From Phormidium tanganyikae FI6-MK23 (GTDB lineage Bacteria; Cyanobacteriota; Cyanobacteriia; Leptolyngbyales; Leptolyngbyaceae), in assembly GCA_019359175.1 (NCBI GenBank), contig JAHHHU010000001.1, positions 434,001 through 498,000 of the forward strand: DNA of 64,000 nt, in the 5' to 3' direction. The notes below the pieces were generated by a model, which saw only the letters and a program-made list of their open reading frames with translations, made no database searches and had not been told where the DNA came from. Below are positions 40,899 to 47,130 of this stretch, piece by piece. Position 1 is the first letter of the stretch. Each line of letters begins with the position of its first letter. The translations under genes and the position numbers were made by a program.

Positions 40899-41129
40899 TC
40901 AGGATGCTCCTTGAACCTGATTGAAAAGGGTGCGGTTTGCATCGTCGGAAGTCATGAAGGATTGCACGTCCAAGATTTCGATGAGGACTAGCTTATCGTT
41001 CTCTGAGTAATGCAGCAGCATCTGCCCTTCTTCTTCAGCGTGAAAGATCGGTTCATCTGAAACTTCAATCAGCAAAGCATCGACATCTGGACTATGGCGA
41101 GTCTTTCTCCCTGGATAGATCGTAATCAC
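40899..41129 (-). CDS. DUF2283 family protein
   Basis: This 76-residue protein matches the DUF2283 pattern: HSPDVDALLIEVSDEPI, EEEGQMLLHYSENDKLVLIE (in part) and ILDVQSF. DUF2283 proteins are often encoded beside a DUF4258 toxin-like protein and are considered antitoxin-like, but no DUF4258 gene is visible here. The N-terminal ten residues are less typical, so the true start may lie a few codons later. It is 59 bp downstream of a nonsense-mutated antitoxin gene on the same strand. Confidence 0.65.
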   Translation of the reverse strand: MITIYPGRKTRHSPDVDALLIEVSDEPIFHAEEEGQMLLHYSENDKLVLIEILDVQSFMTSDDANRTLFNQVQGAS

Positions 41130-41188: not shown

Positions 41189-41458
41189 TTAGTCGTACAT
41201 TGTGTCGCGGTGCATGGCTTCTTCGGGAAGTCCTGGGCTATCTTGCGGCAGGCTGACGACTCATTCTCTAAAACGGCGCGATCGCTCTTCGGGAGTTTTT
41301 GGGATTTGTTTTTGAAGTTCAGCAACATCGATCGAGGCGATGCCGGGTGGGAGTTTGACGGATTTCTTTTTTGCCGATCGAATAAAGTTCAAAGTCGCGG
41401 CGATGAGTTCGTCGGGGGCTTGTTCGAGGTCTTGTAGAAGTTGTTCTCGATCGGTCAT
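41189..41458 (-). pseudogene. Antitoxin-like gene interrupted by an in-frame TGA
   Basis: The first 65 codons (ATG 41458 to TGA 41261) encode TDREQLLQDLEQAPDELI and AELQKQIPKTPEERSRRFRE, an opening like many small cyanobacterial antitoxins (DUF2281-like). After the TGA the same frame stays open for 23 more codons: VVSLPQDSPGLPEEAMHRDT then MYD and a TAA at 41189-41191. This tail resembles the conserved ends of such antitoxins (a W before the tail and an EAxxRDxMY-type close), so the TGA probably replaced TGG. No toxin gene follows. Confidence 0.55.
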
Positions 41459-41759
41459 TTCGGTTTCCTCGTACGATCGTGATGGTTCAATTATCGCTGA
41501 TCGTTAGCATTCGAGATTCGATCGCGTTCCATACCTGCGGCGACACTCGCAAGGCAGCTTCTTGGCAGCCTATTACATTAAGAAGTCTAAGCCATTCAAA
41601 ATTAATGCGCGTGAACTACAGTACTGTACTTGCTCAAGAGCCGTGTTCAAGCTTCATAAAGAATTGTCATATGAAAATAATTTAAAGAGGTAATACATAT
41701 CTATGGGCACTGTGTTAGATTAAACACTAGCCGTAGCGTCAAATGTCAAATTAAGAGAA
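41459..41759. other. Intergenic region before the KilA-N gene
   Basis: These 300 bases contain only short frames without protein character. The last 20 bases include AAGAGAA directly before the KilA-N start, which serves as its ribosome-binding site. No repeat or RNA structure was recognised. Confidence 0.5.
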
Positions 41760-43255
41760 ATGGCAATTCTGTTAGGTACAGGTATCTCCATTAGCCTCGA
41801 TAGCATTGGCTGTTTTCGAGCGGAATTAGCCAGGGCTTGTGGCGCGCTTCCCGCATCGATGCGTAGGTGGCATAGGGTTCAAGTTCGCGCTGGAAGATTA
41901 AAGGAAGGGCGAGACTTCATTATAGTTAGGCAATCTCCTCATGAGAGGCATCACGATGATGATGTCTTCTACTTCTATGAAGCCATCAAAATTTGTCAGA
42001 AACGAACGGCAAAAAAGCAAATTGATCTAAGCCTCATCCAGCTAGATACCCTTCGCGCCCACGGATTGCAGATGATAGACGGGCAAGTGGTTCGCCGAAA
42101 TCAATTACGACTTTTTGAGATAGGACAATCAGCTAACATTACAAGTGCTTCTGAAGGAATTCATCCTGATCTGTTTTCGACACTGATTTTGCGGCAGTAC
42201 AATGGCGTGAATGTTCTCCAACGTTGTACTGACGGTTACATTAAGGTCGATAAGCTATGTCAGGCAGTAGGAGAAAACTGGAGCAGATTTGAGGAGCAAT
42301 TGAGCGACCCTAGCACTAAGTTAGGAGTATATGCTCAGATGCTTAATTCCACTCCGCGCTCTTACAAGATGCCCCTTGTCCAAGAGTTAGAATGTGATGA
42401 TCCAATATTTCAAGGAAACTGGGCAGATCCACGCATTGTGCGTCGTATAGCTGAAGGAATTGATATTGTACTTGCTAATCTTGTTGAGCAATGGGAGATT
42501 GACCTAGAAGGGCGGTTACGTTCCTTGATGACAAATTCAGAGAAGATAACGTGCGTCGTATAGCTGAAGGAATTGATATTGTACTTGCTAATCTTGTTGA
42601 GCAATGGGAGATTGACCTAGAAGGGCGGTTACGTTCCTTGATGACAAATTCAGAGAAGATAACAAAGGGTCACCATGAGTTACTTGAGGAAGCGATTAAA
42701 AAAATAGACTATCAGCGCAAGCATTACGAGCATTTGATTCAAAGCTTTGACAGTTTGAAAGAAAATATTAAAAATCAGCACATATTTGAGCTTTGGAATC
42801 AGAAGATTCAAAAGTATACAGAAGGGGCAATCTCAACCCCTTTGCAGTACTGGAATGTTTTTAAGCAAAAACCAACTAAAGCAACTCGGACAAAATTTCC
42901 GTTCATCTACGTCATCATTGTTTACGCACCACATATTCAACGCCTACCTGAAGTTTTTTACGTTGGTCAGAGCAGTCAACAGCCATACGAACGCTTTTCT
43001 AACCACAATGGACTGAAAAGTGTAGAGGCATTGATGAAGTATGGATATACGTATGAGATTCGTTACTTTGAATCGAAACGTTTTCAAATCAACGCCGTTA
43101 TTAATACTACGGAGACAGCTTTGCGAGCAGCATTAAGTCCATATTGGGAACACTTAACGGCAGAGCAACGCGACAAGATTAAGCGGGGAGAACTGATTAG
43201 CGATGGCTTGTTCGGTTGTCTCTTTACTAAAGATGAATTAACAATAGCTATCTGA
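41760..43255 (+). pseudogene. KilA-N plus GIY-YIG domain gene, frameshifted by a 113 bp tandem duplication
   Basis: Two overlapping frames (41760-42563 and 42551-43255) are halves of one gene. Removing one copy of a perfect 113 bp repeat joins them into a single 460-codon frame. Residues 1-120 form an N-terminal domain (FRAELARACGALPASMRRWH) of antirepressor-like appearance. Residues about 140-240 are a KilA-N DNA-binding domain: LRQYNGVNVLQRCTDGYIKV and GNWADPRIVRRIAEG. A helical linker follows (EEAIKKIDYQRKHYEHLI). The last 115 residues look like a GIY-YIG/T5orf172-type nuclease: FIYVIIVY, FYVGQSSQQPYERFSNH and TTETALRAAL. Such combinations are known in phages and large DNA viruses. As written the gene yields a truncated 267-residue protein. 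Confidence 0.75.
42438..42663 (+). repeat. Perfect 113 bp tandem duplication inside the KilA-N gene
   Basis: Copy 1 is 42438-42550 and copy 2 is 42551-42663; base-by-base comparison shows no mismatch. The unit begins GTGCGTCGTATAGC and ends AGAGAAGATAAC. The length leaves a remainder of 2 on division by 3, so it shifts the frame, producing TAG at 42561-42563 just inside copy 2. Confidence 0.97.
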
Positions 43256-43408
43256 TAAACATTAGGTAGCCGTATCAAAGTGCCAAAAATATAGTTCACC
43301 TGAATCAATATATTGAGCATCTTACCGACGATTTGAGAGGCTTTCTCTCATTGATACACTGCGATCGCAGAAAATCCCTCTCGACTTTCGAGAAATTACG
43401 GAAACAAA

Positions 43409-43560
43409 ATTGATTTCCTTGCGGCAAATACAGCTTTTGTCGTAACAAATATCGATTTCCTTGCGACCAAAATTGATTTCCTTGTGGCAAATACAGCTTT
43501 TATCGCAATCGATACTGATTTCCTTACGACCAATATTGATTTCGTTTCGAGAAAAGCTGT
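43409..43560. repeat. Degenerate 21 bp-period repeat array upstream of mutL
   Basis: The motif GATTTCCTTGCG or close variants recurs at about 43412, 43453, 43474, 43516 and 43537, that is, at spacings of 21 or 42 bases. A 34-base segment at 43409-43442 recurs at 43472-43505 with two differences. The minus-strand frame through it reads repeated QGNQF/QGNRY heptads, because 21 bp is seven codons, but the frame has no other gene-like property. It ends about 50 bp before mutL. Confidence 0.75.
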
Positions 43561-43609: not shown

Positions 43610-45244
43610 ATGGGACATCAGATTCAAACGCTACCGATCGACGTAATTCACCTAATCGCCGCTGGAGAAGTAATCGATTCTCTTGCCGCAGTCGTGCGTG
43701 AACTCGTCGAAAACGCGATCGATGCAGGTGCAACTCGAATCACTATTTCAGTTTGGGCGGATCAGTGGCGGATTCGAGTCGCAGACAATGGCGCAGGTAT
43801 GAGCTTAGATGATTTGCGCCAAGCCGCACAGCCGCATAGTACGAGCAAAATTCGAGATCGAGCGGATCTCTGGCAAATTCACAGTTTGGGATTTCGAGGT
43901 GAAGCTCTGCACAGTCTTGCTCAACTCTCAAATTTAGAAATTCTCAGTCGTACCGCTTCCGAACCTGGATGGCGCATTGCTTATAGTTCTGATGGGGAAC
44001 CGAACCAAGTTGAATCTGTCGCGATCGCACCTGGAACGATTGTGATTGTCGATCGCTTATTTGAAACCTGGGAAGCTCGACGCGAAGGTTTACCTTCTAC
44101 TTCGCAACAGTTAAAAGCAGTTCAACAAACTATCTATCAGATCGCTTTAGCTCATCCGCACATTACTTGGCAGGTCTATCAAAACGATCGCTTATGGTTC
44201 AATCTGTGGGCAGGTAACTCTGCAAAAGACCTACTACCGCAACTGCTGAAAGATGTGCGAATCGAGGATTTAACTGAGGTTCAATCTGCTGCAATTTCTT
44301 TAGTGTTGGGATTGCCCGATCGCGCTCATCGTCATCGCCCTGATTGGGTTCGAGTCGCGATCAATGGTCGATTTGTGCAATTTCCAGAACTAGAGCAAAC
44401 GATCTTAGGTGCATTTCGTCGAACATTACCACGTGATCGACATCCGATCTGTTTGATTCATCTTCAACTTGCACCCGAACACATCGACTGGAACCGCCAT
44501 CCTGCAAAAGCTGAAGTCTATTTACATCACCTTGACGACTGGAAAGATCGGATTAAAAGCGCGATCGCTCAAGCGCTCCGAATCAATCCCGAATCTGTTC
44601 CCGATGGTCTTTACACCTCACAAGTCAGCCAACTAATCAAAGCGGCTGAGTCTGATGCTGGTTATCACGTTCAGCGCGAAATTATTCCCGAACCTTCTCC
44701 CTCTTTTCTCAAAGCGCTGACCCAAGTTCACAATCGATACATTTTGGCAGAGCATTCATCGGGAATGTGGTTGATCGAACAGCACATTGCACATGAGCGC
44801 GTGTTGTTTGAAGAAATTAGCGACCGCTGGCAACTGATCCCGCTCGAACCTGCGATTGTTCTCAATCAACTATCAGTGTCCCAAATCGAGCAGCTTCAGC
44901 GGATTGGGATCGAAGTTGATCCATTTGGCGAACAACTCTGGGTAGTACGATCGGCTCCTGAGTTACTCGCTCAACGAGAAGACTGTGCAGAGGCATTAAT
45001 CGAATTGAGTTTAGGCGGAGATTTGTTGGCGGCTCAGGTGGCGGTGGCTTGTCGGAGTGCGATTCGGAATGGGGTTGCGTTGTCGATCGAAGAGATGCAG
45101 AGTTTAATCGATCGATGGCAGAAAACCCGAAATCCACGTACCTGTCCGCATGGTCGCCCAATTTATCTATCGCTTGAAGAGTCGAGTTTAGCGCGATTTT
45201 TCCGGCGAAGTTGGGTGATCGGAAAGAGCCACGGATTAGAGTGA
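43610..45244 (+). CDS. mutL: DNA mismatch repair protein MutL
   Basis: This 544-residue GHKL ATPase links MutS to downstream repair steps. The ATP-binding motifs are all present: VVRELVENAIDAGATRI, ADNGAGMSLDDL and SLGFRGEALHSLAQL. The N-terminal domain ends with HIDWNRHPAKAEVYLH. The C-terminal dimerisation domain carries LIEQHIAHERVLFEE, a divergent form of the metal-binding DQHAxxExxxxE endonuclease motif with Glu for Asp and Ile for Ala, plus ACRSAIRNG and CPHGRPIYL. The endonuclease metal site may therefore still be functional. The start ATG follows the 21 bp repeat array, and the GAGAGTTTTG stretch before it is only a weak ribosome-binding site. Confidence 0.93.
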   Translation: MGHQIQTLPIDVIHLIAAGEVIDSLAAVVRELVENAIDAGATRITISVWADQWRIRVADNGAGMSLDDLRQAAQPHSTSKIRDRADLWQIHSLGFRGEALHSLAQLSNLEILSRTASEPGWRIAYSSDGEPNQVESVAIAPGTIVIVDRLFETWEARREGLPSTSQQLKAVQQTIYQIALAHPHITWQVYQNDRLWFNLWAGNSAKDLLPQLLKDVRIEDLTEVQSAAISLVLGLPDRAHRHRPDWVRVAINGRFVQFPELEQTILGAFRRTLPRDRHPICLIHLQLAPEHIDWNRHPAKAEVYLHHLDDWKDRIKSAIAQALRINPESVPDGLYTSQVSQLIKAAESDAGYHVQREIIPEPSPSFLKALTQVHNRYILAEHSSGMWLIEQHIAHERVLFEEISDRWQLIPLEPAIVLNQLSVSQIEQLQRIGIEVDPFGEQLWVVRSAPELLAQREDCAEALIELSLGGDLLAAQVAVACRSAIRNGVALSIEEMQSLIDRWQKTRNPRTCPHGRPIYLSLEESSLARFFRRSWVIGKSHGLE

Positions 45245-45269: not shown

Positions 45270-45530
45270 CTATTTCTGAAATAGTTCAGCGATTAGCTCA
45301 TCGCGGCTTAAGCCTAAATGCTCGGCAACATCTCTCAGAATTGCGGAAAGGGTTCCAACTTTGAGCGGATCGTGGGCAGGAATTGTAATGTGATGTTCTC
45401 CATTTCGTTCTGTGGTTAAACGGATATGGCTGCCTGTTTGATGATCGATGATGTATTCAAACCGTTTGAGCCGCTTGGCAAGTTCTGAACCAGAAAGGTC
45501 GCGAGGAGTTTCACGAGGCGATGACCTCAT
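45270..45530 (-). CDS. hicA: HicA family toxin (mRNA interferase)
   Basis: From ATG 45530 the protein is 86 residues; the frame is open further upstream only because it overlaps hicB. The HicA fold is shown by LSGSELAKRLKRFEYII, the catalytic-His segment HQTGSHIRLTT, and HHITIPAHDPLKVGTLSAI with the dsRBD-like closing helix. HicA toxins cleave mRNA when not neutralised. The start overlaps the end of the antitoxin gene by 20 bp, so the order is antitoxin first, the reverse of the classical hicA-hicB order but common in cyanobacteria. Confidence 0.88.
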   Translation of the reverse strand: MRSSPRETPRDLSGSELAKRLKRFEYIIDHQTGSHIRLTTERNGEHHITIPAHDPLKVGTLSAILRDVAEHLGLSRDELIAELFQK

Positions 45531-45720
45531 CTCGCACGAAATGTAGACGAATAAGTTTAGGACGAGCTTGTTCGTCTGGAAAGTGACATCGAACGGCATC
45601 GCGGATTTCTTCACGTAATTGGTCGATATCATCGGCTTCGGTAAAGATTGATTCGCTCAATGCGCGAGCAGTATAGCCGCCTTCGGGTGCATCTTCGATG
45701 AGAAATACGATTTCAGTCAT
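45511..45720 (-). CDS. hicB: HicB-like antitoxin
   Basis: From ATG 45720 the protein is 69 residues. It has the partial RNase-H-like HicB fold: EIVFLIEDAPEGGYTARAL, IFTEADDIDQLREEIRDAV and RCHFPDEQARPKLIRLHF. No C-terminal DNA-binding helix-turn-helix or ribbon-helix-helix is present, so autoregulation may need another protein. It immediately precedes and overlaps hicA. Similar short proteins are often mis-annotated as 2-oxoisovalerate dehydrogenase subunits. Confidence 0.83.
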   Translation of the reverse strand: MTEIVFLIEDAPEGGYTARALSESIFTEADDIDQLREEIRDAVRCHFPDEQARPKLIRLHFVRDEVIAS

Positions 45721-45881: not shown

Positions 45882-46067
45882 TTAAGCGTCTTGTCCCTCA
45901 TCAACTTCTGAACGGCCCCGATCGCGGTAAATCGAAGCTCTCAGTTCAGTAAGGGTTTCATCATCAGCAAGCGCGCCAATTTGCTGAAGGAGTGCTGCAT
46001 GGCTGCTTGGCGTTCGGAGCCAGTCATCGATCGCAGATTTAAGAAATCTCCATTGATTTTCGATATT
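45882..46067 (-). pseudogene. C-terminal remnant of a small conserved cyanobacterial protein
   Basis: The frame ending at 45882 reads WRFLKSAIDDWLRTPSSHAA, ALADDETLTELRASIYRDRG and RSEVDEGQDA, an acidic helical tail typical of small (80-100 residue) cyanobacterial hypothetical proteins. Its own N-terminus is missing. Upstream the frame enters a dispersed palindromic repeat (46126-46155) and then the aldo/keto reductase gene. The repeat insertion or a deletion probably removed the start. The function is unknown. Confidence 0.5.
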
Positions 46068-46125
46068 GCGTCCTGGCAAACTTCCTTGGGTGGCTTGGCA
46101 TGCAATCGTTGTTTTAAGATTTACA

Positions 46126-46155
46126 GGTGGCGGGCAAGATGCCCGCTCTACAGTG
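46126..46155. repeat. REP-like palindrome with a GCGGGCA/TGCCCGC stem
   Basis: GCGGGCA (46130-46136) and TGCCCGC (46140-46146) form a 7 bp hairpin with a 3-base loop, flanked by GGTG and TCTACAGT. This is a common dispersed palindromic element in cyanobacteria (translated as ASCPP where read through). It sits between the remnant gene and the aldo/keto reductase stop, and no T-run follows, so it is a repeat more than a terminator. Confidence 0.8.
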
Positions 46156-46170
46156 TCCAACTTAATCTTT

Positions 46171-47130
46171 CTACCGAGCCGCCGTTTGCGGCAAAGCTGG
46201 CTCAAGAATACGATCGATCTCTTGCAGCACATCATCGCTCAAGTTCACCTCAGAAGCTGCCGCATTATCTACCACTTGTTCTGGACGACTCGCACCGATA
46301 ATGGCACTTGTTACACGCTGATCTTTTAGCACCCACGCTAAAGCAAGTTGAGCCATGGATAGATTTAACCGTTGCGCGATCGGCTTTAAATTCTGCACCG
46401 CACTTAAAACACGATCGTTGAGCAAATTACCCATAAAGCCATTCATCTGATCATTGGCAGCGCGGGAGTCTTGAGGAGGAGCTTCACCCGGTTTGTACTT
46501 CCCGGTCAGCACACCTTGCGCGAGCGGCGACCAAACGATCTGACCAATTCCATTTGCCGCACACAACGGAAACACTTCTGCTTCTGGTTTCCGCCACAGC
46601 ATCGAGTACTGAGGCTGACTCGACACAAATTTCGCCACATTCGGCAGATCCAAAGCGGCTTGAATCTGCGATGCGTTCCATTCGCTGAAGCCAATATATC
46701 GAGCTTTCCCTTGCTGCACAACTTCCGTTAAGGCTTGCATAGTTTCTTCTAGCGGAGTGTTCGTATCATAGCGATGGCATTGATATAAATCGACGTAATC
46801 AGTTTTCAAACGTTGGAGGGAAGCATCGATTTGTTTGCGAATCTGTGCTGCTGACAAACCTCGATCGACATCTGACATCGGAAAATAAACCTTGGTCGCC
46901 AGAATGTAAGAAGAGCGATCGATACCTTGCAACACTTCTCCTAGCAATGATTCTGCTGCTCCTCTCGTATACACATTCGCGGTATCGATGAAGTTAATGC
47001 CAACATCAAAAGCTTTATGAACGCAAGCTTCAGCGTTTTGTCTTTCCACGCCTCCACCGTAGGTTAACCAAGACCCTAAAATAATCTCTGAAGCATTAAG
47101 ATCACTGCTTCCCAACTTGCGATATTTCAT
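46171..47130 (-). CDS. Aldo/keto reductase
   Basis: This 319-residue NADPH-dependent oxidoreductase has a TIM-barrel fold. MKYRKLGSSDLNASEIILG (in part) is the typical start. The catalytic tetrad is visible as Asp in INFIDTANVYTRGAAE, Tyr in the same segment, Lys in ILATKVYFPM and His in LYQCHRYDTN. The C-terminal cofactor segment is SAIIGASRPEQVVDNA. It belongs to the YghZ/Kv-beta-like subgroup, which reduces aldehydes and quinone-like carbonyls. Upstream is a divergent alpha/beta hydrolase gene. The stop lies close to the dispersed palindrome. Confidence 0.9.
   Translation of the reverse strand: MKYRKLGSSDLNASEIILGSWLTYGGGVERQNAEACVHKAFDVGINFIDTANVYTRGAAESLLGEVLQGIDRSSYILATKVYFPMSDVDRGLSAAQIRKQIDASLQRLKTDYVDLYQCHRYDTNTPLEETMQALTEVVQQGKARYIGFSEWNASQIQAALDLPNVAKFVSSQPQYSMLWRKPEAEVFPLCAANGIGQIVWSPLAQGVLTGKYKPGEAPPQDSRAANDQMNGFMGNLLNDRVLSAVQNLKPIAQRLNLSMAQLALAWVLKDQRVTSAIIGASRPEQVVDNAAASEVNLSDDVLQEIDRILEPALPQTAAR

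Follow-up and report, generated by a model that had tools for sequence, protein, structure and literature searches.

Between positions 41760 and 43255 of the window, i.e., the whole 64,000-nt stretch of Phormidium tanganyikae FI6-MK23 DNA that was analyzed, the ORF list contains two plus-strand ORFs in different reading frames. The junction between them coincides with a tandem duplication, and the interval is organized as follows.

41760–42563, plus strand: ORF1 (267 aa), with an orphan N-terminal region (residues 1 to ~135, no convincing family match), a divergent KilA-N part (residues ~142–249), and the start of a helical linker
42438–42550, plus strand: copy 1, the first half of a perfect 113-bp tandem duplication
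42551–42663, plus strand: copy 2, also 113 bp, at which the frame is shifted
42551–43255, plus strand: ORF2 (234 aa, GTG start), a long predicted helix followed by a GIY-YIG-like domain

A reading made earlier from the sequence alone had given the correct coordinates and assigned to them a merged product of 460 residues; the sequence, however, holds two ORFs, and such a chain is only obtained if one 113-bp copy is omitted. All domain analyses were run on ORF1 and ORF2 separately. The two copies (42438–42550 and 42551–42663) are 100% identical, which means that the duplication is either recent or an assembly error, and because 113 is not divisible by 3, the reading frame is broken. With its frame broken by the duplication, the KilA-N gene would either have become a pseudogene recently or be an allele that is reversibly "off". 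The gene is probably switched off or dying in this genome, and it is broken here unless its halves work separately or the duplication collapses.

Two other explanations of the duplication were considered. The first is that it is false and the gene intact, which we regard as unlikely: the assembly comprises 77 contigs and misassembly is known to create spurious short tandem duplications, but the duplication lies inside a 539-kb contig, although this position is little evidence. The second is that it serves as a reversible switch, or that translational coupling yields one chain from each ORF. Perfect tandem copies can be collapsed by recombination, and ORF2 overlaps the last 13 nt of ORF1, with a purine-rich stretch ahead of its GTG start. 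However, this GTG is nothing more than the triplet with which the second copy begins, and the two-copy allele is the only one seen, in a single assembly, so that we consider a phase-variable or two-chain gene very unlikely. With respect to codon usage, the expected frame was the best of six for both the KilA-N and the GIY-YIG stretches, but only weakly so compared to mutL, and for the N-terminal stretch an antisense frame scored slightly above that of the ORF itself. The number of sites found in a promoter and terminator scan was no higher than in shuffles.

The KilA-N assignment was examined by profile and translated searches, which place the domain as follows.

42183–42500, plus strand: KilA-N domain (approximate; residues 147–245 by hmmscan, with most tblastn stretches within residues 134–254)

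Pfam aligned ORF1 residues 147–245 to positions 3–100 of the 107 positions of the KilA-N profile PF04383 (E = 3.2e-4), with a score of 21 bits that is below the curated gathering cut-off of 23.8 bits. An hhalign comparison of ORF1 to a profile of 24 cyanobacterial KilA-N ORFs (7 of 31 loci were omitted from the alignment as duplicates, wrong frames or, in one case, for a stop) gave 97.3% over 100 columns, compared to 2.7% at most for 40 shuffles. By tblastn, ORF1 matched seven plasmid records (best E = 4e-6, to an annotated KilA-N protein), of which five are annotated as KilA-N, one is unannotated, and one is annotated as DNA methylase. It also matched three records (best E = 7e-5) belonging to two phages, among which one carries a KilA-N annotation. 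At the level of sequence comparison, the KilA-N homology claimed by the earlier reading is thus confirmed as real but divergent. Relative to other KilA-N proteins, e.g., those of cyanophage S-SRP02 and of Planktothrix plasmids, the core of ~100 residues is alike (23–40% identity); the window gene, however, has W-A-D-P where its relatives have W-x-H-P, lacks the following A-x-W, stays below the Pfam cut-off, and is joined to two further regions. A PDB sequence search with ORF1 found nothing. The N-terminus had also been described as antirepressor-like. AntA and Bro-N are N-terminal domains of phage antirepressors, and neither was matched by Pfam in residues 1–140, where the scan returned only an unrelated match (E = 0.25). 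As the N-terminal 135 residues have no convincing family match, this description is unsupported.

For the second half of the gene, the relevant feature is the following.

42890–43252, plus strand: probable GIY-YIG-like domain with the motifs IYV...FYVGQS...ERF..H...KYG...TETAL

The domain alone matched PF01541 with E = 0.05 and 14.3 bits, compared to a gathering cut-off of 22.6, and PF01541 was absent from the Pfam results for the whole of ORF2. T5orf172 (PF10544) was unreported by Pfam at a limit of E = 10, where the HMMER filters drop most matches above ~0.1, and the C-terminus had no Pfam match to MUG113. Among the three profiles proposed with the earlier reading, PF04383 and PF01541 are therefore both found below their cut-offs, and PF10544 is not reported. 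We further applied an HMM of 50 viral GIY-YIG domains, for which 52 of 80 viral loci were used after removal of near-duplicates by eye, three were dropped for stops, and locus L113 was added. The window scored 9.4 bits, and 1 of 2000 shuffles was as good; the window score was equaled by 2 of 2000 shuffles with a T5orf172 HMM and by 14 of 2000 with a mixed PF01541-type HMM, whereby shuffles getting no score were taken as lower. One shuffle reached 17.4 bits in the HMM test, and PF01541-type sequences outside the training set obtained 14–22 bits on the viral HMM, as compared to the 9.4 bits of the window. This HMM misses the T5orf172 branch, since 26 T5orf172 sequences scored only −1.7 to 2.2 bits. 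With hhalign, no signal was obtained against GIY-YIG profiles, but T5orf172 members gave none either, and this profile–profile test is therefore without power; from its set, a frame filter had removed 4 of 30 T5orf172 loci and 15 of 30 PF01541 loci, and many of the latter look like genuine small GIY-YIG ORFs.

An alignment with 23 viral GIY-YIG domains revealed that the window retains the invariant Tyr, Tyr-x-Gly, and Arg as well as the K-x-G of KYG. The nearly invariant Glu column holds Ala, with a Glu five positions before it (TETAL); this points either to a misalignment at that place or to the absence of the catalytic Glu. Of the motifs listed earlier, FYVGQS and ERF are thus present in order, and the late Glu is outside the Glu column. 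The domain shares IYV, FYVGQS, ERF, and KYG, in this order, with the GIY-YIG endonucleases of PF01541, from which it differs by an F-I-Y instead of a G-I-Y as the first motif, the unaligned Glu, and the sub-threshold profile score.

Structure prediction, which the sequence-only reading had suggested, contributed little. The AlphaFold model of ORF2 alone had a pLDDT of 50, too poor for use of the fold, although the linker formed a helix over residues 2–91 (block pLDDT 52–85) in this otherwise poor model. A second model, for which GIY-YIG rows were supplied, reached a pLDDT of 64 and a pTM of 0.42 with the order E-E-H-H-E-H; the GIY-YIG fold is beta-beta-alpha-beta-alpha, and the model leans to this fold because of the GIY-YIG rows in its input. 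No significant fold match was obtained for this model with Foldseek/VIA. The weak matches include GIY-YIG entries (2wsh_C at rank 2, E = 0.77; 1ln0, Z = 3.1; 2wsh_D, Z = 3.2), and unrelated folds rank equal to or above them. EndoII and I-TevI are among these weak matches of the modeled C-terminus; T4 EndoII, I-TevI, and the viral Seg-like enzymes are GIY-YIG endonucleases. A PDB sequence search with ORF2 returned only four weak matches to the linker (E > 0.5). The C-terminal domain probably belongs to the GIY-YIG superfamily. Of the GIY-YIG/T5orf172-like nuclease proposed earlier, the GIY-YIG part is moderately supported, and the T5orf172 part found no Pfam match.

No full-length relative of the gene was found in 41 other members of the family, in 387 other genomes of the class, or in phage and plasmid collections, and pattern scans of genome and viral contigs, which reach close relatives only, did not reveal one either. 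Within the family, ORF1 occurs in its own genome only (1/42). Seven of 388 class genomes, including its own, matched ORF1, the six others over the KilA-N part only (best E = 2.7e-14), and two matched ORF2, i.e., its own genome and one with an E = 3e-3 match to residues 3–81 in the helical linker. ORF2 had no match in plasmids and phages. KilA-N is uncommon in the class (17 of 291 genomes), and the genome studied here is counted among the 17 by virtue of another KilA-N gene, as the window gene was unlisted at the E limit used. This second, intact KilA-N gene (L055, G000:C77:227987-228247) has a 297-aa frame, is located on another contig, and was missed when the window gene was the query; it is not a second copy of the gene, of which the genome has none. 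A T5orf172-domain gene with a 463-aa frame (L082, G000:C50:430958-431239) lies ~3 kb before the start of the window.

Domain shuffling joins KilA-N with GIY-YIG-superfamily domains in viruses, and the earlier reading had called this combination a known theme. We could identify precedents. One cyanobacterial locus (L066) encodes a fusion of KilA-N and MUG113/T5orf172, and in another (L006) the ORF with KilA-N overlaps a second one containing a stretch similar to GIY-YIG, which scored 20.5 bits on the viral GIY-YIG HMM with 0 of 300 shuffles as good; Pfam at E = 0.001 gives only helix-turn-helix for this second ORF. For large DNA viruses, a published table of gene clusters places KilA-N, GIY-YIG, and T5orf172 together in one cluster (PMC8715426). 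Like L066 and the fusions of large DNA viruses, the window gene has KilA-N followed by a probable GIY-YIG-superfamily domain; in contrast to L066-type fusions, its C-terminus matches neither MUG113 nor T5orf172, and it has an extra N-terminal region and a longer linker.

These data also bear on the suggestion that the gene is a domesticated phage antirepressor or regulator, in which KilA-N would regulate transcription and the C-terminal domain would not cut. In line with it, stand-alone KilA-N genes are found next to those of regulators in a cyanophage and a cyanobacterial plasmid; the weak match of the C-terminal domain and a Glu outside the Glu column agree with it as well. On the other hand, Tyr, Tyr-x-Gly, and Arg are conserved, and none of the relatives searched had the gene, although a domesticated gene should be kept. 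We therefore judge a regulator to be rather unlikely, while retaining it as a candidate.

To place the gene in its context, ~8 kb upstream of mutL were compared among seven other genomes of the genus. The comparison revealed the following features around the gene.

43610–45244, plus strand: mutL, the conserved neighbor anchoring the comparison
41481–41576, minus strand: stump of a NACHT gene, the last ~30 codons, oriented opposite to the KilA-N gene (tblastn, 87.5% identity, E = 4e-13)
43337–43368, minus strand: remnant of the NACHT leader, 32 of 32 bases identical to locus L211
41570–43336: replacement segment of ~1.77 kb carrying the KilA-N gene, without match in the congener stretches compared

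Three of the seven congeners (L027, L029, and L031) carry a minus-strand NACHT gene of 680–723 aa at mutL, with Pfam E-values of 1.3e-13 to 4.4e-15 for NACHT and additional NCH2 domains. The other four had no DNA match to the NACHT gene beside mutL; one of them, G017, has a homologous gene elsewhere (L211), which is 79% identical to the L029 gene over 2.1 kb. In L211, the leader lies ~13 bp upstream of the NACHT start codon, and L027, L029, and L031 contain leader matches of 26–36 bp at 86–96%. In the window, the NACHT body of ~2 kb is gone, and only stump and leader are left. The replacement segment had no match in the mutL-upstream stretches of the seven congeners, nor in L211. Its GC content is 41.2% (41570–43342), compared to 47.7% for the window, and was as low in 5 of 1245 sliding placements, which include ones overlapping the segment itself. 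Judged by these sequence comparisons, the KilA-N gene stands in place of a NACHT gene, with remnants on both sides, and is absent from the congeners examined. While the combination of KilA-N with a GIY-YIG-superfamily domain is already known, its substitution for an NLR-type gene is more unusual, and we found no publications combining NACHT and KilA-N in one open-access library.

That the gene is flanked by both ends of a NACHT gene could also be explained by a homing-type selfish gene, whose GIY-YIG nuclease cleaved the NACHT gene and which was then copied into the cut site. In homing, no part of the target is lost on insertion, and an extra N-terminal region of ~135 aa is atypical for a homing-type gene. 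Selfish elements often use GIY-YIG endonucleases (PMC11334073). However, the target gene is not otherwise complete, and the explanation is weakened because the ~2-kb NACHT body is missing rather than merely interrupted; in addition, no second copy exists in the genome and none in 41 family members. Homing accordingly appears improbable to us, and among the three options offered by the sequence-only reading it lost ground, whereas a defense nuclease and a domesticated antirepressor both remain candidates.

The surroundings of the NACHT gene form a toxin–antitoxin/NACHT island, of which the window retains the following parts.

41261–41458, minus strand: antitoxin-like ORF of 65 aa (89 aa in L027), termed VapB-like solely because a PIN gene adjoins it there, and without Pfam match
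40899–41129, minus strand: DUF2283 gene of the same island
41503–41525, plus strand: 23-bp repeat GTNAGCATTCGRGATTCGATCGC, which recurs at the 3' ends of island modules in congeners

Next to the replacement segment, about 0.7 kb of L027 are missing in the window, comprising most of the PIN toxin gene and a small ORF. Together with the loss of the NACHT body and the shortened antitoxin-like ORF, this missing PIN region indicates that the island is eroding. Among 16 distinct neighboring ORFs scanned, 14 with and two without a Pfam family, no phage gene was found. The gene had been said to stand alone, with no prophage genes around it; the latter agrees with our scan, but the former was incomplete, as the survey of neighbors in congeners revealed a NACHT gene at the same place, and the gene occupies that place in the island. 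On the other side of mutL, we observed a HicA toxin gene (45270–45632) and a small HTH-like ORF with a Pfam score below cut-off (45882–46235), so that conflict genes flank mutL on both sides. A 21-bp (63-bp) minisatellite lies in the mutL leader (43405–43550), and at the corresponding place in L029 and L031 a different short repeat is seen by eye (GAACTC...CGAGTATTT).

With up to 2 mismatches allowed, the repeat GTNAGCATTCGRGATTCGATCGC has 14 copies, distributed over seven of the eight congeneric genomes, compared to 0 for the reversed control. Twelve of these copies are upstream of mutL, including that of the genome studied here, and two are in L211. When up to 3 mismatches were allowed, the examined stretches also contained 14 copies, and a minus-strand ORF ends within ~60 bp at nine of them. 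The repeats (41503–41525; L026–L029, L031, and L211) have the same orientation at or near module 3' ends, and the module order differs between species; e.g., a VapBC-like module (68.8% DNA identity) lies on the left side of NACHT in L027 and on the right side in L029. Overall, the island looks like a case of module shuffling with shared 3' ends. The toxin–antitoxin/NACHT package has also moved, since in the congener G017 it is absent beside mutL (L030) and present at L211 (G017:C1:1010500-1019500), in the vicinity of genes that by eye resemble ispE and rsmA. Integron-type sites at the repeat were considered and set aside, as single-strand folding of two repeat-bearing stretches was not better than that of shuffles (z = −0.13 and −0.82). 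Viral contigs contained no exact match to the repeat.

Bacterial NACHT (NLR-related) antiphage proteins are the kind of gene replaced here, and the congeners carry NACHT with NCH2; one of two of their NACHT proteins tested matches the PADLOC candidate model PDC-S60 (1.7e-9). Pfam gave no named effector domain for them. The KilA-N gene is dissimilar to these proteins, and PADLOC returned 0 families for ORF1 or ORF2 at E up to 0.1. Two of the NACHT proteins (L029:4809-6851 and L031:2007-4178) contain short degenerate repeats (ALALDRVRAR... and RVLDRAYDRA...) that differ between congeners, and the repeat part of that in L029 has short matches in Streptomyces and Acaryochloris plasmids. NACHT proteins protect other bacteria against phages (PMC12169576). 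Together with the substitution for a NACHT gene, this suggests, by analogy, a role of the KilA-N gene in defense or conflict.

The explanation we favor, to which we give an even chance, is that an acquired phage-type KilA-N/GIY-YIG-like conflict gene replaced the body of a NACHT (NLR-type) gene and is now frame-broken. It would have arrived by horizontal transfer and replaced the NACHT body in the toxin–antitoxin/NACHT island beside mutL. In its intact form, it would encode one chain of the orphan N-terminal region, KilA-N, a long helical linker, and a GIY-YIG-like nuclease, in which KilA-N may bind a DNA site, the linker may pair two chains, and the GIY-YIG domain may cut, with incoming DNA of phages or other mobile elements as its most plausible target. 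A further explanation would be a cassette locus without an obvious recombinase, at which toxin–antitoxin and NACHT modules sharing 23-bp 3' ends are shuffled beside mutL and were moved elsewhere in one congener, with the KilA-N/GIY-YIG gene as a functional NLR-type substitute held "off" by a reversible duplication; we consider this quite unlikely. If the replacement by a conflict gene is right, the locus would be a fresh example of conflict-gene turnover, in which the two ends of the NLR-type gene are still visible, and the island with its common 23-bp tail would allow tests, in a single genus, of how small defense modules move when no recombinase is obvious.
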